25,285 nucleotides of DNA from a virus. Below are positions 603 to 21,552 of the stretch, in pieces. Each line of letters begins with the position of its first letter. Position 1 is the first letter of the stretch. The DNA is taken from positions 1-25,285 of the IMG/VR virus record IMGVR_UViG_3300035564_000211; one strand, 5' to 3'. The notes below the pieces were generated by a model. The model did no database searches, was not told where the DNA came from, and saw only the letters and a program-made list of their open reading frames with translations. The translations under genes were made by a program, and so were the position numbers.

Positions 603-791
603 ATGAACTCACATCCAGGTTTTGCTGGGGCCACTCGTTCGGTGGCCGCGCGGGAACATCTCCCTATGAAGAATGCCGCGGCTATCATCGCCGCTTCGTC
701 ACGTAATGCCTCGCCGGCCGCCAAGCGCGAAAATCCACGGCTCAAGAAGGTTCGTGGCCGTGGAAAGACTGGTCTGAGCAAAATCTACTGA
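603..791 (+). CDS. small basic protein, hypothetical
   Basis: A 62-residue, strongly basic protein rich in Ala, Lys and Arg, with a tail KKVRGRGKTGLSKIY. The ATG at 603 is preceded by AGGG with a 7-base spacer, one of the few plausible ribosome binding sites in this window. An internal ATG at 666 would give a 41-residue version. Its stop codon abuts the stop codon of the convergent minus-strand gene at 792, which fits real gene ends meeting. The basic tail suggests nucleic-acid or ribosome contact, but that is a guess. An opposite-strand frame of similar length covers most of it, so coding status is not certain. Confidence 0.4.
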   Translation: MNSHPGFAGATRSVAAREHLPMKNAAAIIAASSRNASPAAKRENPRLKKVRGRGKTGLSKIY

Positions 792-1196
792 TTACGGAGT
801 CGGTGGAGCGACGGGCGGCGTGACTGCATCCAATGCCGTGAGCTTGTCAGCTATGGTTTTGGTGCGCGCCTCAATGCCATCAAGCAACGCCTGATCAGCA
901 GGGGTAATGGTACCGGGGGAGTTTTGAAGCTGAGTGATCTGATCACTGAGGTTTTTGATGTCACTGGTGAGTCCAGTAACAGCGGCATCGATTTGATCGT
1001 TAACGGCATTTTGTTTGGTGACGAAGTCTGATATGGCGGACATGAGTTTATTTCCTAGTTCGTGCAGGTCTTGTTTGGTGGCAGTACTAGACATCGACCT
1101 GGTGAAATGTCCAACTGCAGCGATGAGTTTATCACCAAGTCGATCCATCAACTCAGCTATGAGTTGAATGGGTTCCTTGGGGTGATCGTGATCCAT
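792..1196 (-). CDS. coiled-coil protein, hypothetical
   Basis: A 134-residue protein if started at the ATG at 1196 (MDHDHPKEP); the frame is open to an ATG at 1286. Residues about 42-90 form a heptad-like coiled coil (KQDLHELGNKLMSAISDF, then DIKNLSDQITQLQ), a Thr-Pro break follows at about 94-100, then a second helix (LLDGIEARTKTIADKLTAL) and a Pro-rich tail ending PPVAPPTP. Proteins with this plan are common small phage genes of unknown role, often near lysis or tail genes. Its promoter should lie in the 105-base divergent gap to the gene at 1302, because the operon to its right ends at the terminator at 1494-1528. Confidence 0.6.
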   Translation of the reverse strand: MDHDHPKEPIQLIAELMDRLGDKLIAAVGHFTRSMSSTATKQDLHELGNKLMSAISDFVTKQNAVNDQIDAAVTGLTSDIKNLSDQITQLQNSPGTITPADQALLDGIEARTKTIADKLTALDAVTPPVAPPTP

Positions 1197-1301
1197 ACCA
1201 GCATAGTACCGCGATCGAGCTATAAGTTCGATAGGGTGAAACCCGACCCTGGTAGGGGAATACCTGATGGCCTGATTTGGTGGCACATGGTACTGTAGAC
1301 T

Positions 1302-1499
1302 ATGCCTATCATTTCGCTCATCATCATCTTGGTCGTAATCGGAGTAATCCTGTGGCTAGTGAATACGAAAATACCGATGGATAGTACCATCAAGGCGATC
1401 ATTAACGTGGTTGTGTTGATCGCAGTGCTGGTATGGTTGCTGAGCGTATTCGGTGTGATAGGAAGTATCGACACGGTGAAGGTTCCCAAGCTCAAATAA
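1302..1499 (+). CDS. small two-helix membrane protein (Thivi_2564-like)
   Basis: A 65-residue protein that is almost all membrane: helix 1 at residues 3-21 (ISLIIILVVIGVILWLV), a short polar turn NTKIPMDSTIK, and helix 2 at about 32-51 (AIINVVVLIAVLVWLLSVF), then a short soluble tail. The pattern of a P-[LI]-IS start, WLVN, IPMD, then NVVV and VWLL matches my memory of the small membrane family annotated Thivi_2564, found in many bacteria and some phages. Two helices with a short loop also fit a holin-like topology, but no endolysin is nearby to support lysis. The start follows a 105-base divergent gap, and the stop runs straight into the terminator stem at 1501. Confidence 0.7.
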   Translation: MPIISLIIILVVIGVILWLVNTKIPMDSTIKAIINVVVLIAVLVWLLSVFGVIGSIDTVKVPKLK

Positions 1500-1528
1500 A
1501 AACCCCGTCCCACATGAGAGACGGGGTT
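1494..1528 (-). terminator. intrinsic terminator for the helicase-protease-PEP-CTERM operon
   Basis: A perfect 9-bp stem pairs 1501-1509 (AACCCCGTC) with 1520-1528 (GACGGGGTT) around a 10-base loop. Read on the minus strand, the stem is followed at once by TTTTTATTT, the classic U-run. On the plus strand the stem is preceded by A residues and followed by GAGCGGG, so it is weak in that direction. It lies 55 bases past the stop of the minus-strand gene ending at 1584, and its U-run overlaps the stop codon of the convergent gene 1302-1499. Confidence 0.85.
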
Positions 1529-1583
1529 GAGCGGGTTTCCGGGTCCGCTCGGCTTCAGATAACCAAGCCACTCACTACATGGC

Positions 1584-2306
1584 TCAGCAATTTTTTAACC
1601 GGAATTTTCGTACAGCAATCAATACGATAAGCGCCATACAGCCGATCACGGCATATACTGATGGCTCCGGCACTGCATCAAAAGCGATCTGGCGGGTGTT
1701 GAGTCTTACCAAGAAAACACCATCGTTGAAATCGACCGTACGCGGATCTGAGGCTCGGTCGTCGATGAACGCCATGTAGTAGTTGAAGTTTGGATCATCG
1801 GTCGAAAGAAACCAGTGGAAGATCGAAGCGTTGAATTCATCTCCGGAGATCCCCATGCTGGCGTCAGTATGTTTGAAATCAATCACGTTCGATGGAAGTG
1901 AAGTAGATCCAGTACCGTCGATGCGCCAGGTTACCGTTGTGGCTGCGCTGTAGTTGGCGAATAGCGTGGTATTGCCGTTGAGCGTACCGAACGATATGAA
2001 GTTGTTCGAATCGGCAGAACTCTTCGTGATATACGAGACCTCGGCGAACTGAGTGAATGATCCGTTGTTGCCGACCGTGAACTCATTCGGCGCAAGCGTA
2101 CCAGTGATATTGCTGAATGTCAGGGCGGGAAGCGAATTCAAGGTGAAGCCTGCCGACATACCCGAGGCGAGCAGCGTATTGATATCGGATACGTTGGCGC
2201 GGATTGTCGAAGGAGGCGAAGTCACTCCTTCATTGGTGTAGATGAGCTGAGCGTAGGAACTAGTGGCAAGCACTAGGGCTAACAGGGTGATGAGTTTAGT
2301 TTTCAT
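1584..2306 (-). CDS. secreted PEP-CTERM sorting-signal protein
   Basis: A 240-residue exported protein. Residues 1-19 are a Sec signal peptide (MKTKLITLLALVLATSSYA, cleavage expected before Gln20). The C-terminus is a typical PEP-CTERM signal: VPEP at 212-215, a hydrophobic helix at about 219-233, and a basic end with RKFR. In bacteria such signals are recognised and cut by an exosortase, delivering the protein to the outer envelope. The middle is beta-rich and Ser/Thr/Asn-rich; near 180-205 there is FIDDR followed by DFNDGVFLVRL, resembling the acidic FND motif of DUF4114-type calcium-binding modules. The ATG at 2306 overlaps the TGA of the upstream protease gene (ATGA), so translation is coupled. 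No exosortase is seen here, so sorting would rely on the host. Confidence 0.85.
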   Translation of the reverse strand: MKTKLITLLALVLATSSYAQLIYTNEGVTSPPSTIRANVSDINTLLASGMSAGFTLNSLPALTFSNITGTLAPNEFTVGNNGSFTQFAEVSYITKSSADSNNFISFGTLNGNTTLFANYSAATTVTWRIDGTGSTSLPSNVIDFKHTDASMGISGDEFNASIFHWFLSTDDPNFNYYMAFIDDRASDPRTVDFNDGVFLVRLNTRQIAFDAVPEPSVYAVIGCMALIVLIAVRKFRLKNC

Positions 2307-3127
2307 GGCGAAGGAAGTTGGGCTATCCACGGATGGACCATATTCACCTCGAAGGTTGATCCCATCTTACGATCAGCTCCAAGGTAGAATGGAACACTGT
2401 TCCACATAAAGAAATTTGGAGATCCGCTATCACCTGGTTCGGTCATTGAGTTATTAAGCAGCATGCAAGTGCAGGTCATGACACCACCTGTGCCTCGGAT
2501 TGCGCGCAGGATACGGCCATCAGTGGCTACCGGTATCCAGTTGTAGGGCGTAATATTCCGACTTCCGACTAATCCAAAGGAAACAATAGGTTGGCTGATG
2601 TATGCCGCGATCTGCATGTCGCTCGCTAATCGAGCTGGGGTTATATCGGTAACCGGTGTCTGCAGCCTCCAGATATCGAGATCACCAAAGGTTGCTGCAA
2701 GTTCCTTAATCGTCGCAGTCACCACGCCATTCTTACCATAGAAGATAACCGCTTCTCCTGGCGATGCCGGGTAGTGATTGGCCAATGCAATCAGCGTGGG
2801 CTTGATGAGAGCGCATAACCGAATTGGATTGGTCTGAATAACCCCAACGCACTCGTAGGGATTTATGGATACACCGAGGATCGGTACTGACCGCGTAACC
2901 GGTGGAGGGGTTACTGTTATGATCTGGGTGAACGGCGGGAAGTCTACGGTGACGCCGTCCTGTGTGATCGATGGAACCTGTACTGTTATCGGTACCTGAA
3001 TTGGATCAGGCTGGAAGACGACATCCTGACTGGTTGGCTGAGCGCCGGCCTGTAGATAACCAAAGGCCGGGTTTGAAACGCTGTTCAGTACAAGTGCATT
3101 GGCCTGGGAGTAACCGGAAATTACCAT
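2303..3127 (-). CDS. trypsin-like (S1-type) serine protease
   Basis: A 274-residue protein with a readable chymotrypsin-fold catalytic triad: His118 in TLIALANHY (in place of the usual TAAHC), Asp151 in LDIWRLQTPV (in place of DIALLRL..PV), and Ser234 in EPGDSGSP, the family nucleophile motif. Spacing and order H-D-S fit the S1 fold. Residues 35-85 are Val/Pro/Thr-rich and may be a linker or strand-swapped arm. No clear signal peptide is visible at the annotated ATG, so export is uncertain. It lies in the helicase operon 73 bases after a small gene and is coupled by ATGA to the PEP-CTERM gene, which suggests a joint role such as maturing or displaying that protein. The catalytic reading is strong; the substrate is unknown. 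Confidence 0.75.
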   Translation of the reverse strand: MVISGYSQANALVLNSVSNPAFGYLQAGAQPTSQDVVFQPDPIQVPITVQVPSITQDGVTVDFPPFTQIITVTPPPVTRSVPILGVSINPYECVGVIQTNPIRLCALIKPTLIALANHYPASPGEAVIFYGKNGVVTATIKELAATFGDLDIWRLQTPVTDITPARLASDMQIAAYISQPIVSFGLVGSRNITPYNWIPVATDGRILRAIRGTGGVMTCTCMLLNNSMTEPGDSGSPNFFMWNSVPFYLGADRKMGSTFEVNMVHPWIAQLPSP

Positions 3128-3200: not shown

Positions 3201-3467
3201 TCAAATATGCACCGCGTCAGACCAACGCTTCACCTTCGAGAGTAGATCAGTGTCATTGCAGACTGTAAATACCTGACGGTTATCGGCCGCTGAAATGATC
3301 GTGATATTCTCTGCTGTTACTGTATCGGCTGCTGTTTCCATCTGAGCTAACGAGATCGACCGGATGATGTCTATATGCGATAGGTCTACCTCTGTAGACT
3401 GGCCAAGAAGTCCACGGCCAATCCCGCATGCTGCATCCGATATCTTTATGGCGATGGCGAGGTTCAT
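3201..3467 (-). CDS. hypothetical small protein in helicase operon
   Basis: An 88-residue protein starting MNLAIAIKISDAACG. The start at 3467 shares one base with the stop of the gene before it (TGATG), so translation is probably coupled; that fixed the start over an ATG further upstream at 3509. It has a helical N-terminal half and a stretch ENITIISAADNRQVFTV that looks like two beta strands, ending KVKRWSDAVHI. There are two Cys residues but no metal-binding pattern. I do not recognise a family. Position third in the operon after the replicative helicase makes a DNA-replication accessory role possible, but this is inference only. Confidence 0.6.
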   Translation of the reverse strand: MNLAIAIKISDAACGIGRGLLGQSTEVDLSHIDIIRSISLAQMETAADTVTAENITIISAADNRQVFTVCNDTDLLSKVKRWSDAVHI

Positions 3468-3685
3468 CAGTAGTGCCGATGTTCTATTGGTCGGATGCTG
3501 TAGCGCCAAGGTTTTTCTGGATTACACCAGAAGTAGTCGGCGCCATTGTCGATGGATCGCTTCTCTTCAGCCATGGATATACGGCGTCCTTTCTCGACAA
3601 CGATTTTAATGCCGAGGTCTGGATGTCCGGATTTTAGGTTCATTTTGGCAGCACTAGTGGCGCTGCCTGGATTAGGGCCACTCAT
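3467..3685 (-). CDS. hypothetical small protein coupled to helicase
   Basis: A 72-residue, basic, Pro/Gly-containing protein starting MSGPNPGSATSAAK. Its ATG at 3685 overlaps the TGA of the helicase gene (ATGA), and its own stop overlaps the next start (TGATG), so it sits in a chain of coupled genes. The middle has GIKIVVEKGRRISMAEEKR and the end is rich in Tyr, Trp and Pro. No domain is recognised. The opening MSGPNPGS resembles the opening MSGNPSEI of the helicase, which may be chance. Confidence 0.6.
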   Translation of the reverse strand: MSGPNPGSATSAAKMNLKSGHPDLGIKIVVEKGRRISMAEEKRSIDNGADYFWCNPEKPWRYSIRPIEHRHY

Positions 3686-5397
3686 ATTGATCTTAGGTTA
3701 TATGTTTTCCTGTCGTTGATTATGGCTTCTGTGATGAAGCCTTCGCTGGTGAATTTTGATAATATCCCGTTTATTTTCTCTGTTCGTGATGGAAGTCCGT
3801 TGGTCGAGAATAGGCGCTGGATCTCATTGAATGATCGGCCTGGTTTGTCGTGCGGCGGGAATGCAAATCTAAAGTCGGAGAATATATACTTGTCGGGTGG
3901 TGCCTTAGTGGATGATGGCTTGGATTCCTCCGGCTGTACCTCGCGTGATTCCCAATAGATCTTTGGAATGCCGTTGGCGATACCAGGGATATCGAACCTA
4001 CCTGTAGCATGCTTGAGTGGTATGGTGGTGACCGGTTCTAGGCGTGTTCCCATGCCGTGGGGAACCTGCTTTGTAACTCCGGCGCGCCGGCCGCGCTTGG
4101 CCAGCACGAGATTGAAATTCCCCTCTACCTCATCCGCACGCAGCGATATGATCGCTCTCGCCCAGTTAATCAGTTCCGCTCCTCCTGCCATATCGTACAT
4201 CACCTCATGCCATAGCCGCTCTGACTTTTCTTTTCCTGTCGCTGGTTTTGTGGTGTGGTGGATTATGATGTACCCAAAGGTCGCTGGCTCGTTGATGCTA
4301 TTCAATCCTTCGCGCAGGAAGGCGCCTAGGTCACGGCCGTCGGTGACGTCGCCATCCATGAATGCCTGTAGTGGATTTATAATTACAATATCTGGTTTGA
4401 AGATAGCTATCTGCTTACGGAGTTCGTTGAGGAATCTCTCGCCACGGTTCACGCGATCTGTGATTACCCGAACCGAATCGTTCACGAAGTCGATCTGCTC
4501 CTTGGTAAGATTGAGTATATTCTGTAGCGAATAGGCTACCTCGGCAACATCGCCATCCGAGTCTTCCGATTGAACGATCAGAGTACGAAGTGGGCCGTTA
4601 CCGTGGATACCAAAGGGGCCTTTGTTGAGCGCGAGTTCCGTGGCCATCTGGATGGCCATCGCAGATTTGCCCATACCCGAGGTTGATACGATGATTGCCC
4701 CATCGCCGCGGCTCAGGTAGCGATTCCCAAGTAGGATCGATTTGTCCTTATCTTTGGCTAGCGAGAATTCGAAGAGGCCGCGGCTCTTGAGCTTGGCTGG
4801 GGTAGCAGTGAGTTCGGAAACCGACTGGAAGCGCGCCTGCGCATCGGCGATGAAATCCTCGATATCGCCTTGCTGGAGATAAGCGCGCTCGACGATTCCG
4901 GTGGCCTCTTTGATCGACCTGCGCAGCGCATGTAGGTCTTTCAGCGTCTTGATAAAATAACCTACCTGCGCGGTGGTAGGGATGCGCCCGCTGATCTGGG
5001 TGAGGAATGCATAGCCGCCAAGCCCTTCGAGTTCGTTATTCTTGCGAAGCTCCTCCGAAAGCATCACGAGGTCTATTTCTGACTTTGAGTCGTAAAGCTT
5101 TTCCAGTTTCTCGTAGACTATACGATTTGATCCACTGTAAAAATATTCCGAACTAAGACGCTCATCTCGACAGCGTCTCATGACGTCGCGCCCATCAAGC
5201 AGAATTCCTCCAAGTAGGTATTCTTCAGCCTCGACTGAATGTGGTGGCGATCGACCGAGTTCGGTACCGTTCTTTCCTACGGTCGATTTCTGGATACGCT
5301 TCACCGGTATTACCGGTAGGTCTTCAAACCGTACTGGCTCTTTTGCTGGTGGGGTATCGTCCCAATCTACTTCAATTTCTGAGGGATTCCCGCTCAT
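3682..5397 (-). CDS. replicative DNA helicase, DnaB N-domain fused to RepA-like ATPase
   Basis: A 571-residue protein. After an acidic 45-residue lead, residues 50-165 match the DnaB N-terminal helical domain: PHSVEAEEYLLGGIL, then YFYSGSNRIVYEKL and IDLVMLSEELRK. A linker leads to a RecA-fold ATPase with Walker A STSGMGKS (238-245), an acidic strand end at QSEDSDGD (277-283), Walker B PDIVIINP (335-342) and a sensor-like IIIHHTTKP (377-385). This core is closer to hexameric RepA-type (AAA_25) helicases than to classical DnaB. The C-terminus (about 510-571) resembles a winged helix, with SFNEIQRLF and GFITEAII. It would unwind the phage replication fork. It is first in a minus-strand operon behind a structured leader and coupled to the next gene by ATGA. 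No Shine-Dalgarno site is seen. Confidence 0.88.
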   Translation of the reverse strand: MSGNPSEIEVDWDDTPPAKEPVRFEDLPVIPVKRIQKSTVGKNGTELGRSPPHSVEAEEYLLGGILLDGRDVMRRCRDERLSSEYFYSGSNRIVYEKLEKLYDSKSEIDLVMLSEELRKNNELEGLGGYAFLTQISGRIPTTAQVGYFIKTLKDLHALRRSIKEATGIVERAYLQQGDIEDFIADAQARFQSVSELTATPAKLKSRGLFEFSLAKDKDKSILLGNRYLSRGDGAIIVSTSGMGKSAMAIQMATELALNKGPFGIHGNGPLRTLIVQSEDSDGDVAEVAYSLQNILNLTKEQIDFVNDSVRVITDRVNRGERFLNELRKQIAIFKPDIVIINPLQAFMDGDVTDGRDLGAFLREGLNSINEPATFGYIIIHHTTKPATGKEKSERLWHEVMYDMAGGAELINWARAIISLRADEVEGNFNLVLAKRGRRAGVTKQVPHGMGTRLEPVTTIPLKHATGRFDIPGIANGIPKIYWESREVQPEESKPSSTKAPPDKYIFSDFRFAFPPHDKPGRSFNEIQRLFSTNGLPSRTEKINGILSKFTSEGFITEAIINDRKTYNLRSI

Positions 5398-6171: not shown

Positions 6172-6454
6172 CGAGCGAGCATATGAGAAGATGCGCTCAG
6201 ATATCATGGATATCGAGGCGCTACGTAAATTCGAACCATTCACTAGGTATTTCATTCGACGTCTGCGTGAGAAGCATGCTGCAGTTGTGGCGCGTCTCCA
6301 CGATGATCCAGTAGAAAAATGCTCACATGAGGAGCGCGAGATCCTTCGACGTCTTATGAAGGAGTACGAAGATATTATCGGGATGATGGCGCGCGAGGAA
6401 ACAACCTGTAAGGCGACCTTAACTCTGGCTGCTCTGGGGCCGCTGGCCAAATGA
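6155..6454 (+). CDS. hypothetical helical protein in repressor operon
   Basis: A 99-residue protein, almost wholly helical and charged, with EALRKFEPFTRYFIRRL and EEREILRRLMKEYEDII as main helices. The ATG at 6155 lies inside the end of the zinc-ribbon gene (17-base overlap); the frame is also open to an ATG at 6104, but that would give a long overlap. The 3' end overlaps the convergent receiver-domain gene by 36 bases, which is unusual. No domain is recognised, and there are no membrane segments. It is likely an early phage protein of the control operon. Confidence 0.62.
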   Translation: MEITDNERAYEKMRSDIMDIEALRKFEPFTRYFIRRLREKHAAVVARLHDDPVEKCSHEEREILRRLMKEYEDIIGMMAREETTCKATLTLAALGPLAK

Positions 6455-6919
6455 TTTCAGGCTAGCCGGCATTCGTACGTTATGCATCGCAAGAGCAAGT
6501 CGTACACTGTCGATAGTGATTGGTTTTTCATCAATGCAGACAGGACCGTATTCGGTGATTCCGGTCACGTTTAAGAACTGGCCTGATATGAGTACCACGG
6601 GCTGTGGTGGCCAGAGCTTGCGAATTTTCTCCAAGACTTCCATCCCGCTCAAATCTGGCAGTCTCATGTCGAGAAAAACTAGATCAAATGGATGGGTTGT
6701 AACGCCGCTTTCGAAGCGCCGCTCGTACATCTTTTGGTAGATCTCGACTGCGTTCTTGCCAGAGGTTGCTGTTTTCACGCTGAGCCCAAACGAAGTGAGC
6801 ATCTTTCGGATGACCTCTAGCAGCATGTCATCATCATCAACAACCATGATCTCAGGTGGAACAATCCAGTGGCGAACAAGGTCGTCGATCACCTGCACTG
6901 TATTGCTTGGGAGGCTCAT
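6419..6919 (-). CDS. stand-alone response-regulator receiver domain
   Basis: A 166-residue CheY-like protein. All residues of an active phosphoacceptor site are visible: the acidic cluster DDDD at 28-31 after MVV, phosphoacceptor Asp84 in LVFLDMRLPDLSG, Ser112 in VVLISGQ and Lys132 in DEKPI. There is no DNA-binding or enzymatic output domain; about 25 residues precede the domain and 20 Ser/Gln/Pro-rich ones follow. It should accept phosphate from a host histidine kinase and signal by protein contact. The ATG at 6919 lies 4 bases after the stop of the membrane-protein gene before it, which decides the start over a frame open to 7192. No kinase is encoded nearby. The 3' end overlaps the convergent gene by 36 bases. 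Confidence 0.88.
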   Translation of the reverse strand: MSLPSNTVQVIDDLVRHWIVPPEIMVVDDDDMLLEVIRKMLTSFGLSVKTATSGKNAVEIYQKMYERRFESGVTTHPFDLVFLDMRLPDLSGMEVLEKIRKLWPPQPVVLISGQFLNVTGITEYGPVCIDEKPITIDSVRLALAMHNVRMPASLKSFGQRPQSSQS

Positions 6920-6923
6920 GACA

Positions 6924-7286
6924 TTATGGGAAGAATTTCTTGAGGATAGCTTCGGATATCTTCGCCAGCAATCCGCTACCCAACGTGGTAACAATGAACA
7001 CAGCAATGCCTGAGTAAAGCGTGTAGCGCATTGTGAGCGATTTTTTCCACCTGCGCACGCGGATGAGTTCTGTTTCGAATTTACGTTGCTGGCGATTGGT
7101 CTCGATCGCCGCTTGAATGAGCCAGTCAACTTTTTGAGCGATGACATAAAATCCCAGTAGCAACTTCTGATCCCGTTTGTTGAAATCAGCAATGTCAGAC
7201 GCCGGTACGCTCGGAGAAAATTCAGGTGGTTTTAGCAAAGGCGTGGTGAGGTCGTCTTCAAGGACGTCTTCGTTTTCGGATGACAT
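6924..7286 (-). CDS. single-pass membrane protein, hypothetical
   Basis: A 120-residue protein with an acidic, Pro-rich N-terminus (1-30), an amphipathic helical middle with many basic residues (RKFETELIRVRRWKKSL, 68-84) and one membrane segment near the C-terminus at about 88-108 (LYSGIAVFIVTTLGSGLLA), ending KKFFP. The basic residues before the helix predict a cytoplasmic N-terminus. The shape suits a tail-anchored accessory protein or a class III-like holin, but no endolysin is present to support lysis. It lies between the two-helix membrane gene and the receiver gene, with 51- and 4-base gaps, so it could work with the receiver protein; that link is inference. Confidence 0.65.
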   Translation of the reverse strand: MSSENEDVLEDDLTTPLLKPPEFSPSVPASDIADFNKRDQKLLLGFYVIAQKVDWLIQAAIETNRQQRKFETELIRVRRWKKSLTMRYTLYSGIAVFIVTTLGSGLLAKISEAILKKFFP

Positions 7287-20289: not shown

Positions 20290-21552
20290 ATGTCATCGAT
20301 TTCATTTACTCCGTGCGGATGCTGCTCATCTGGAGATAAAGCATGGTTTTGGGGTGATAACTCATTTGCTGTAGACGGTAGTGGATCTGGTTCAGGTGTT
20401 GAGGCTGTGACCCAGATCGGGTCTTCAACTGATTGGTCTGATCTTACAAATAATGGAACGGCTGTGATCGGCCTAAAGACCGATGGTACAATCTGGTTTT
20501 GGGGTACAAACTTCAATGGAGAGAATGGAAGCGGTGTAGCCGATGGGCTGTCATATGCTCCAACTCAAATTGGAACCGATACCAACTGGAAGAAAGTATA
20601 TCAGACCGGGAAATGCTTTATTGGTCTGAAAACTAACGGTACATTATGGTTCTGGGGTACGAATAACCGAGGTGAAAATGGAAGCGGTGTAGATGATGGA
20701 TTAGTTTACTCGGTTACCCAAATAGGTACAGACTCTGACTGGGATAGGTTAGGTAATCTATTTATCAATGTAATAGGTATAAAGACAAGCGGAACGATTT
20801 GGTTCTGGGGTAGAAGCGGAAATGGTGAGGTTGGTAACGGTATTGTTGGTGGGACATATGCACCGACCCAGATAGGATCATCGACATGGAGTAAGGTTTA
20901 TAACGTAGACCAATGTATTTTGGGAATAAGAACCAATGGTACAGCGTGGTTCTGGGGGTTGAATGGATTCGGAGAAAATGGAAGTGGAGTCGCTGATGGG
21001 TTAATCTACGCTCCTACACAAATAGGTGCTGCAACTAACTGGGAAGAACTAGCCCTCGGCGGAACAGGCGCTATAATCGGGCTAAGAACTGATGGTACTT
21101 TGTACCACTGGGGGGCTAATACTTTCGGCGAGAAAGGAACCGGATCGGGTGATGCTGTTATTCATGTACCTGCTCAGATCGGATCGGCATCGGATTGGGT
21201 TCATGCCTACCAGTTTGACAATTGCGTGGCGGCTGTGAAGTCAACTGGAACTGCGTGGTTTTGGGGTACAAATGGAGCTGGTGAGAATGGTAGCGGAGTT
21301 GCTGATAATTTAATATATGCGCCAATGCAGATAGGTAGCGCTACAGACTGGGACCAGCTCTACCCTGGTATGGGTGCTGTTGTTGGTCTTAAGACAGGTG
21401 GCTCTATCTGGTTTTTTGCAACGAACAATAACGGCGAAATAGGAACTGGCACAGCCGATGGGTTAGTTTATGCTCCAGTCCAGATAGGTGTGGCTACAAA
21501 TTGGGCAAATGTATTTTATGCTTTATTTAGCTATATAGCTTTGAGCGCATGA
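20290..21552 (+). CDS. RCC1-type beta-propeller protein
   Basis: A 420-residue protein made almost entirely of repeats of about 50 residues. Eight copies of the RCC1 signature can be read, for example AWFWGDNS, IWFWGTNFNGENG, LWFWGTNNRGENG, IWFWGRSG, AWFWGLNG, LYHWGANT, AWFWGTNG and IWFFATNN, each followed by a GSGVADGLxYAPxQIG stretch and a DW segment. This predicts a seven-bladed (perhaps eight-bladed) propeller with ends meeting. RCC1 propellers bind proteins or sugars; in a virion gene block a receptor-binding or tail role is likely. No signal peptide or nuclear-type features. Blades 2, 3, 5 and 7 are the most alike, suggesting recent duplication. It is coupled to the next gene by ATGA. 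Confidence 0.85.
   Translation: MSSISFTPCGCCSSGDKAWFWGDNSFAVDGSGSGSGVEAVTQIGSSTDWSDLTNNGTAVIGLKTDGTIWFWGTNFNGENGSGVADGLSYAPTQIGTDTNWKKVYQTGKCFIGLKTNGTLWFWGTNNRGENGSGVDDGLVYSVTQIGTDSDWDRLGNLFINVIGIKTSGTIWFWGRSGNGEVGNGIVGGTYAPTQIGSSTWSKVYNVDQCILGIRTNGTAWFWGLNGFGENGSGVADGLIYAPTQIGAATNWEELALGGTGAIIGLRTDGTLYHWGANTFGEKGTGSGDAVIHVPAQIGSASDWVHAYQFDNCVAAVKSTGTAWFWGTNGAGENGSGVADNLIYAPMQIGSATDWDQLYPGMGAVVGLKTGGSIWFFATNNNGEIGTGTADGLVYAPVQIGVATNWANVFYALFSYIALSA

Follow-up and report, generated by a model that had tools for sequence, protein, structure and literature searches.

The window analyzed here, an entire IMG/VR virus record (25,285 bases), raises the question of whether a phage can carry a gene for a PEP-CTERM protein and, if so, what such a protein would do for it. 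PEP-CTERM proteins, by which many bacteria equip their envelope, combine a signal peptide with a PEP motif, a C-terminal helix, and a basic end (Haft et al., PMC1569441; PMC3237569), and in the model for the class they are exported by Sec, anchored by the helix, cut by exosortase at the PEP motif, and transferred to the envelope or exopolysaccharide (PMC1569441). The first-pass annotation had described a complete exported protein of this type, with a signal peptide and a PEP-CTERM tail, at positions 1584 to 2306. Analysis of the ORF, its hydropathy, and its tail bore out both the coordinates and the description, since the gene, P0001, is a complete ORF on the minus strand that fills exactly this interval and encodes 240 amino acids from an ATG start.

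Hydropathy analysis revealed only two strong hydrophobic stretches in P0001, at residues 5 to 22 and at about residues 212 to 237. The former, with a hydropathy above 1.6, belongs to the N-terminus MKTKLITLLALVLATSSYAQ, which is preserved in the homologue from related phages (see below), corresponds to the signal peptide of PEP-CTERM proteins, and by eye looks like a good Sec signal. The latter lies in the C-terminal end DAVPEPSVYAVIGCMALIVLIAVRKFRLKNC, in which VPEP (residues 212 to 215; the motif can be written VPEPS-YA) is followed by a hydrophobic segment (residues 216 to 232) and by RKFRLK (residues 233 to 238). A PEP motif, a transmembrane helix, and a basic cluster are thus all placed at the extreme C-terminus, with the model match stopping about 5 residues before the end. 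The predicted structure of P0001 was unusable overall (pLDDT 31), and a helix at residues 215 to 238 appeared in the tail of that poor model. The whole protein had no match in Pfam, NCBIfam, or PHROGs, and a DUF4114-like domain considered for the stretch FNYYMAFIDD...DFNDG was rejected, as it had no Pfam support at thresholds of up to E 10 for the homologue in L006 and E 1 for P0001. The features of the locus are summarized in Table 1.

Table 1. Features of P0001 and of its surroundings in the window
Feature	Position	Strand	Basis
Serine recombinase, C-terminal end, cut by contig end	1..153	(+)	L003 homologue is a phrog_125 DNA invertase
Coiled-coil-like protein, fourth cassette gene	792..1286	(-)	comparison with relatives
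Small hydrophobic membrane protein, same cassette	1302..1499	(+)	phrog_23151
Terminator-like inverted repeat (I7) between convergent genes	1501..1528		
PEP-CTERM-type exported protein gene P0001	1584..2306	(-)	ORF, hydropathy, profile matches, shuffle test
C-terminal tail of P0001, residues 212-240: VPEP, hydrophobic helix, basic RKFRLK	1587..1673	(-)	profile matches, hydropathy, shuffles, helix in model
Signal-peptide-like N-terminus of P0001, residues 1-19 (MKTKLITLLALVLATSSYA/Q), without lipobox Cys	2250..2306	(-)	sequence and hydropathy
Trypsin/chymotrypsin-fold protease gene, ATGA overlap with P0001 start; His118, Asp149, Ser234 invariant	2303..3127	(-)	
Conserved small gene adjoining cassette	3201..3509	(-)	
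Conserved small gene after helicase	3467..3685	(-)	
DnaB-like replicative helicase	3682..5397	(-)	

The tail of P0001 was then scored alone against the profile models of the class, yielding 14.6 bits with TIGR02595 (cut-off, 16) and 14.8 with PF07589 (cut-off, 20.7), such that the curated HMM cut-off for PEP-CTERM proteins was narrowly missed in both models. Nevertheless, the only families matched were PEP-CTERM families, namely, six in NCBIfam (the PepA tail included) and one in Pfam. The first-pass annotation had called for such an HMM comparison and would have been given up on a tail that fails to match PEP-CTERM models; the outcome is not a clean failure of this kind, as the matches are sub-threshold yet all of them point to PEP-CTERM models. 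For calibration, canonical [IV]PEPSTYA tails from other phage contigs were scored in the same models. They reached 13.3 to 16.0 with TIGR02595 in six of the seven tested, with 21.4 in the remaining one, and 12.3 to 19.9 with PF07589 (n = 4 tested), all below its cut-off. Since textbook PEPSTYA phage tails mostly miss the thresholds too, the low score of P0001 is not telling, and the cut-off is weak as a defining test. We also applied a tail rule that asks for [VILAM]PEP, a hydrophobic stretch, and two C-terminal basic residues to 2,055 ORFs with lengths of 60 amino acids or more from the window phage and its relatives (415 kb), and only the P0001 family passed. The tail of P0001 exceeds chance expectation: none of 27,000 shuffled C-terminal transmembrane tails passed the rule, and of 200,000 shuffles of the P0001 tail itself, 45 passed.

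We consider it probable that P0001 is an accessory gene of the phage (moron-like) and that its product, an envelope protein of the PEP-CTERM type, is displayed via the host exosortase and changes the host surface to the advantage of the phage. In this process, the signal peptide would direct P0001 to the Sec system of the cell, the C-terminal helix would hold the protein in the inner membrane, and the host exosortase, an enzyme on which the phage would then depend, would cleave at PEP. The ectodomain of 190 residues would thereby be handed to the infected cell's envelope or exopolysaccharide, where it would most likely alter the cell surface for the benefit of the phage, for example, against competing phages. 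Superinfection exclusion is our guess for this role, made plausible by the analogy to exclusion proteins of the envelope (PMC11436027). Among these, Cor of phi80/N15 exerts surface exclusion at the envelope by receptor inactivation (PMC11436027); P0001 has in common with Cor its small size, its accessory nature, and a presumed site of action in the host envelope, but the two have no sequence link.

As the first-pass annotation had stated, the window contains no exosortase, which a PF09721 search confirmed for the window record and for four related phage records; no exosortase was detected either in T4-like records with PEP-CTERM genes (see below), and the records of both sets may be fragments. 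By helicase, the nearest cellular contig belongs to a Sulfuritalea MAG (L023, JALHNN010000001.1; 52%), the only contig in the genome collection with a relative of the helicase, and it may be a misbinned phage contig. Neither a PEP-CTERM nor an exosortase match was found on this contig, an absence that carries little weight because the PF07589 control was silent, and the link between contig and phage is weak as well.

Relatives of the phage were found via the DnaB-like helicase, which gave 15 related IMG/VR loci. A homologue of P0001, 71% identical and ending in FDPVPEPSAYALYGAAALILLVAVRKLRFSRTA, is present in L003, L004, and L006, which are near-identical to each other and were therefore counted as one lineage, such that only two independent lineages are known for the family. 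No P0001 homologue was found in described phages, plasmids, the genome collection, or 185 genomes from the class to which the Sulfuritalea MAG belongs; the lone weak genome match (L030, E 0.008) showed no credible exported protein. The search for homologues in other phages that the first-pass annotation had proposed succeeded in one related lineage and returned nothing from described phages. The homologue retains VPEPS-YA, the helix, and the basic end, while adjacent tail positions have diverged. This conservation bears on whether P0001 could be a plain type I phage membrane protein, exported and anchored by its C-terminal helix, in which PEP is coincidental and exosortase never cuts. The sub-threshold HMM scores speak for such a protein, as does the lack of an exosortase in the phage records; however, the same elements stand in place in both lineages amid diverged neighbors, the chance rate of the tail is near zero, and scores just as low are obtained for clear PEPSTYA tails from the contigs of other phages. 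We thus regard a plain membrane protein as unlikely.

The comparison of P0001 with its homologue over the full length gave a dN of 0.21 and a dS of 2.3 (dN/dS, about 0.09), and the whole protein is, as judged from these substitution rates, under purifying selection. By region, dN was 0.18 to 0.19 for ectodomain residues 21 to 208 versus 0.34 for the tail. These values are relevant to a role for P0001 as an exosortase decoy, in which a flood of substrate would strip or remodel the PEP-CTERM surface proteins of the host instead of displaying the ectodomain. A decoy can claim the same tail evidence as display does, but strong purifying selection on the ectodomain would be needless for it, and the stronger selection on the ectodomain than on the tail favors a functional surface protein; we hold a decoy to be quite improbable.

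The region between the serine recombinase and the replication genes, in which P0001 lies, is a variable slot. The neighborhood of four genes, comprising P0001, the protease, the small membrane protein, and the coiled-coil-like protein, is common to both lineages, and in both the start codon of the PEP-CTERM gene overlaps the protease stop codon as ATGA. The closest relative, L002 (helicase 82% identical), lacks this cassette at the corresponding position, and its 31-kb record contains no P0001 homologue anywhere; in L003, the cassette is inverted relative to the helicase (window 790-3127 versus L003:12233-14540). A DNA-invertase-family serine recombinase (phrog_125) adjoins the slot in L002, L003, and other relatives. 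A block that is absent in L002, inverted in L003, and located beside a serine recombinase indicates an accessory cassette; accordingly, the placement of the gene in the phage helicase operon, as first annotated, holds by position, whereas a block that relatives carry in inverted form or lack at this site is not part of the operon proper. Given the inversion between lineages and the adjacent recombinase of the DNA invertase family, the cassette is possibly an invertible segment; no significant inverted sites were found at the block boundaries, and the three L003-type records agree in orientation.

The protease encoded upstream of P0001 has an invariant triad of His118, Asp149, and Ser234 (in GDSG), as in S1-fold proteases, with the fold taken from a low-confidence model. 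In a Foldseek search with that model, almost all of the best 50 matches listed were chymotrypsin-fold proteins (best E, 6e-4), and the match to PF13365 (E 0.0045) was below the cut-off. The protease has no obvious signal peptide. The small membrane protein of the cassette weakly matches a holin family (phrog_13404, E 0.68), and with this neighbor as holin, P0001 could be a lysis protein, that is, a unimolecular spanin-like bridge of the inner and outer membranes, to which its N-terminal export signal, its C-terminal helix, and a middle part predicted as partly beta-stranded (low-confidence model) would be suited. Nevertheless, L002 lacks the cassette at this position, and the cysteines of P0001 are at residues 223 and 240 only, with none in the homologue. 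A lipoprotein or unimolecular spanin was rejected on this ground, as no Cys lies near the N-terminus to form a lipobox and hence to provide an outer-membrane lipid anchor; we consider a lysis role very improbable. Finally, although PEP-CTERM genes are normally bacterial (PMC1569441), the chance that host DNA or misassembly accounts for P0001 is negligible, since it is flanked by phage genes on either side and independent related phage records contain the cassette as well, in agreement with the phage-borne gene originally proposed.

Two other regions of the window were recorded. At 6419-6970 (-) and 6924-7286 (-), a response-regulator receiver domain (PF00072, E 5e-17) is preceded by a small protein that has a hydrophobic stretch at its C-terminus, and the pair (6419-7286) is kept in L002 and L003. 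At 20290-21552 (+), the window encodes an RCC1-like beta-propeller repeat protein (PF13540, PF25390), and an ORF similar to it (MSSISFTGPCSCCS...) is located at one end of a related 61.7-kb record.

IMG/VR was also scanned with an exact DNA pattern for [IV]PEPSTYA, which revealed 36 loci; in at least 30, the motif is at the C-terminus and is followed by a hydrophobic stretch, and some of the loci may be bacterial flanks of prophages. Several of the contigs are T4-like, with genes for a gp32 single-strand binding protein (E 2.5e-112), a gp59-type helicase loader, PAAR, PhoH, and a sigma-like factor nearby. From the likeness of their record names, we take these T4-like contigs to be marine. One T4-like family comprises 12 loci, most of them with PEP tails. 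In the near-identical loci L082, L083, and L084, IPELSTYA stands in place of IPEPSTYA. In ten loci (L036, L056, L058, L059, L062, L079, L080, L082, L083, and L084), the PEP-CTERM gene is directly followed by a gene for a conserved putative beta-barrel outer-membrane protein of about 385 amino acids (PF10082, below cut-off). Two T4-like PEP-CTERM queries had no match in the collection of described phages. The first-pass annotation had regarded a virus-encoded cargo of this pathway as unusual, and this assessment is weakened by the 36 loci, the T4-like contigs, and the 12-locus family. Tentatively, several unrelated phage lineages may independently use the host exosortase pathway for surface display of PEP-CTERM cargo that they bring along (encoded beside a protease gene here and beside an outer-membrane barrel gene in the T4-like phages), remodeling the envelope, probably against competing phages.

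The selection seen with the second lineage, together with PEP-CTERM genes in unrelated phages, indicates that the gene is real and probably lets the phage display a protein via host machinery. P0001 resembles the known PEP-CTERM/exosortase (EpsH) proteins (TIGR02595 and PF07589, including Zoogloea PepA, NF033554, and the large Verrucomicrobium spinosum set) in its signal peptide, PEP motif, helix, and basic end, and its ectodomain, Ser/Thr/Asn-rich and without known homology, is likewise typical of the class (PMC1569441). In contrast to the bacterial proteins, P0001 is encoded by a phage in which no exosortase was found, falls slightly short of the curated cut-offs, and has a gene that overlaps a protease gene rather than forming a single-gene operon. 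The other phage PEP-CTERM genes (T4-like families, alignment A4, and the L036/L056/L058/L059 group) are similarly phage-borne, with a signal peptide, an [IV]PEPSTYA tail, and no exosortase in their records, but their ectodomains are unrelated to that of P0001, and the ten paired loci combine them with a putative barrel, not with a protease. P0001 thus represents a known class of bacterial proteins in a variant carried by a phage, and the observation stands, with a scope somewhat wider than first proposed.

A search of the open-access full-text literature turned up no report of PEP-CTERM genes in phages, and viral use of PEP-CTERM sorting appeared undescribed there. PEP-CTERM proteins form a large class of which little is known in terms of function. 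Phage PEP-CTERM genes that are kept under selection and paired with a protease or a barrel suggest that the pathway matters during infection, and these phage pairs are compact systems for probing the role of exosortase cargo.
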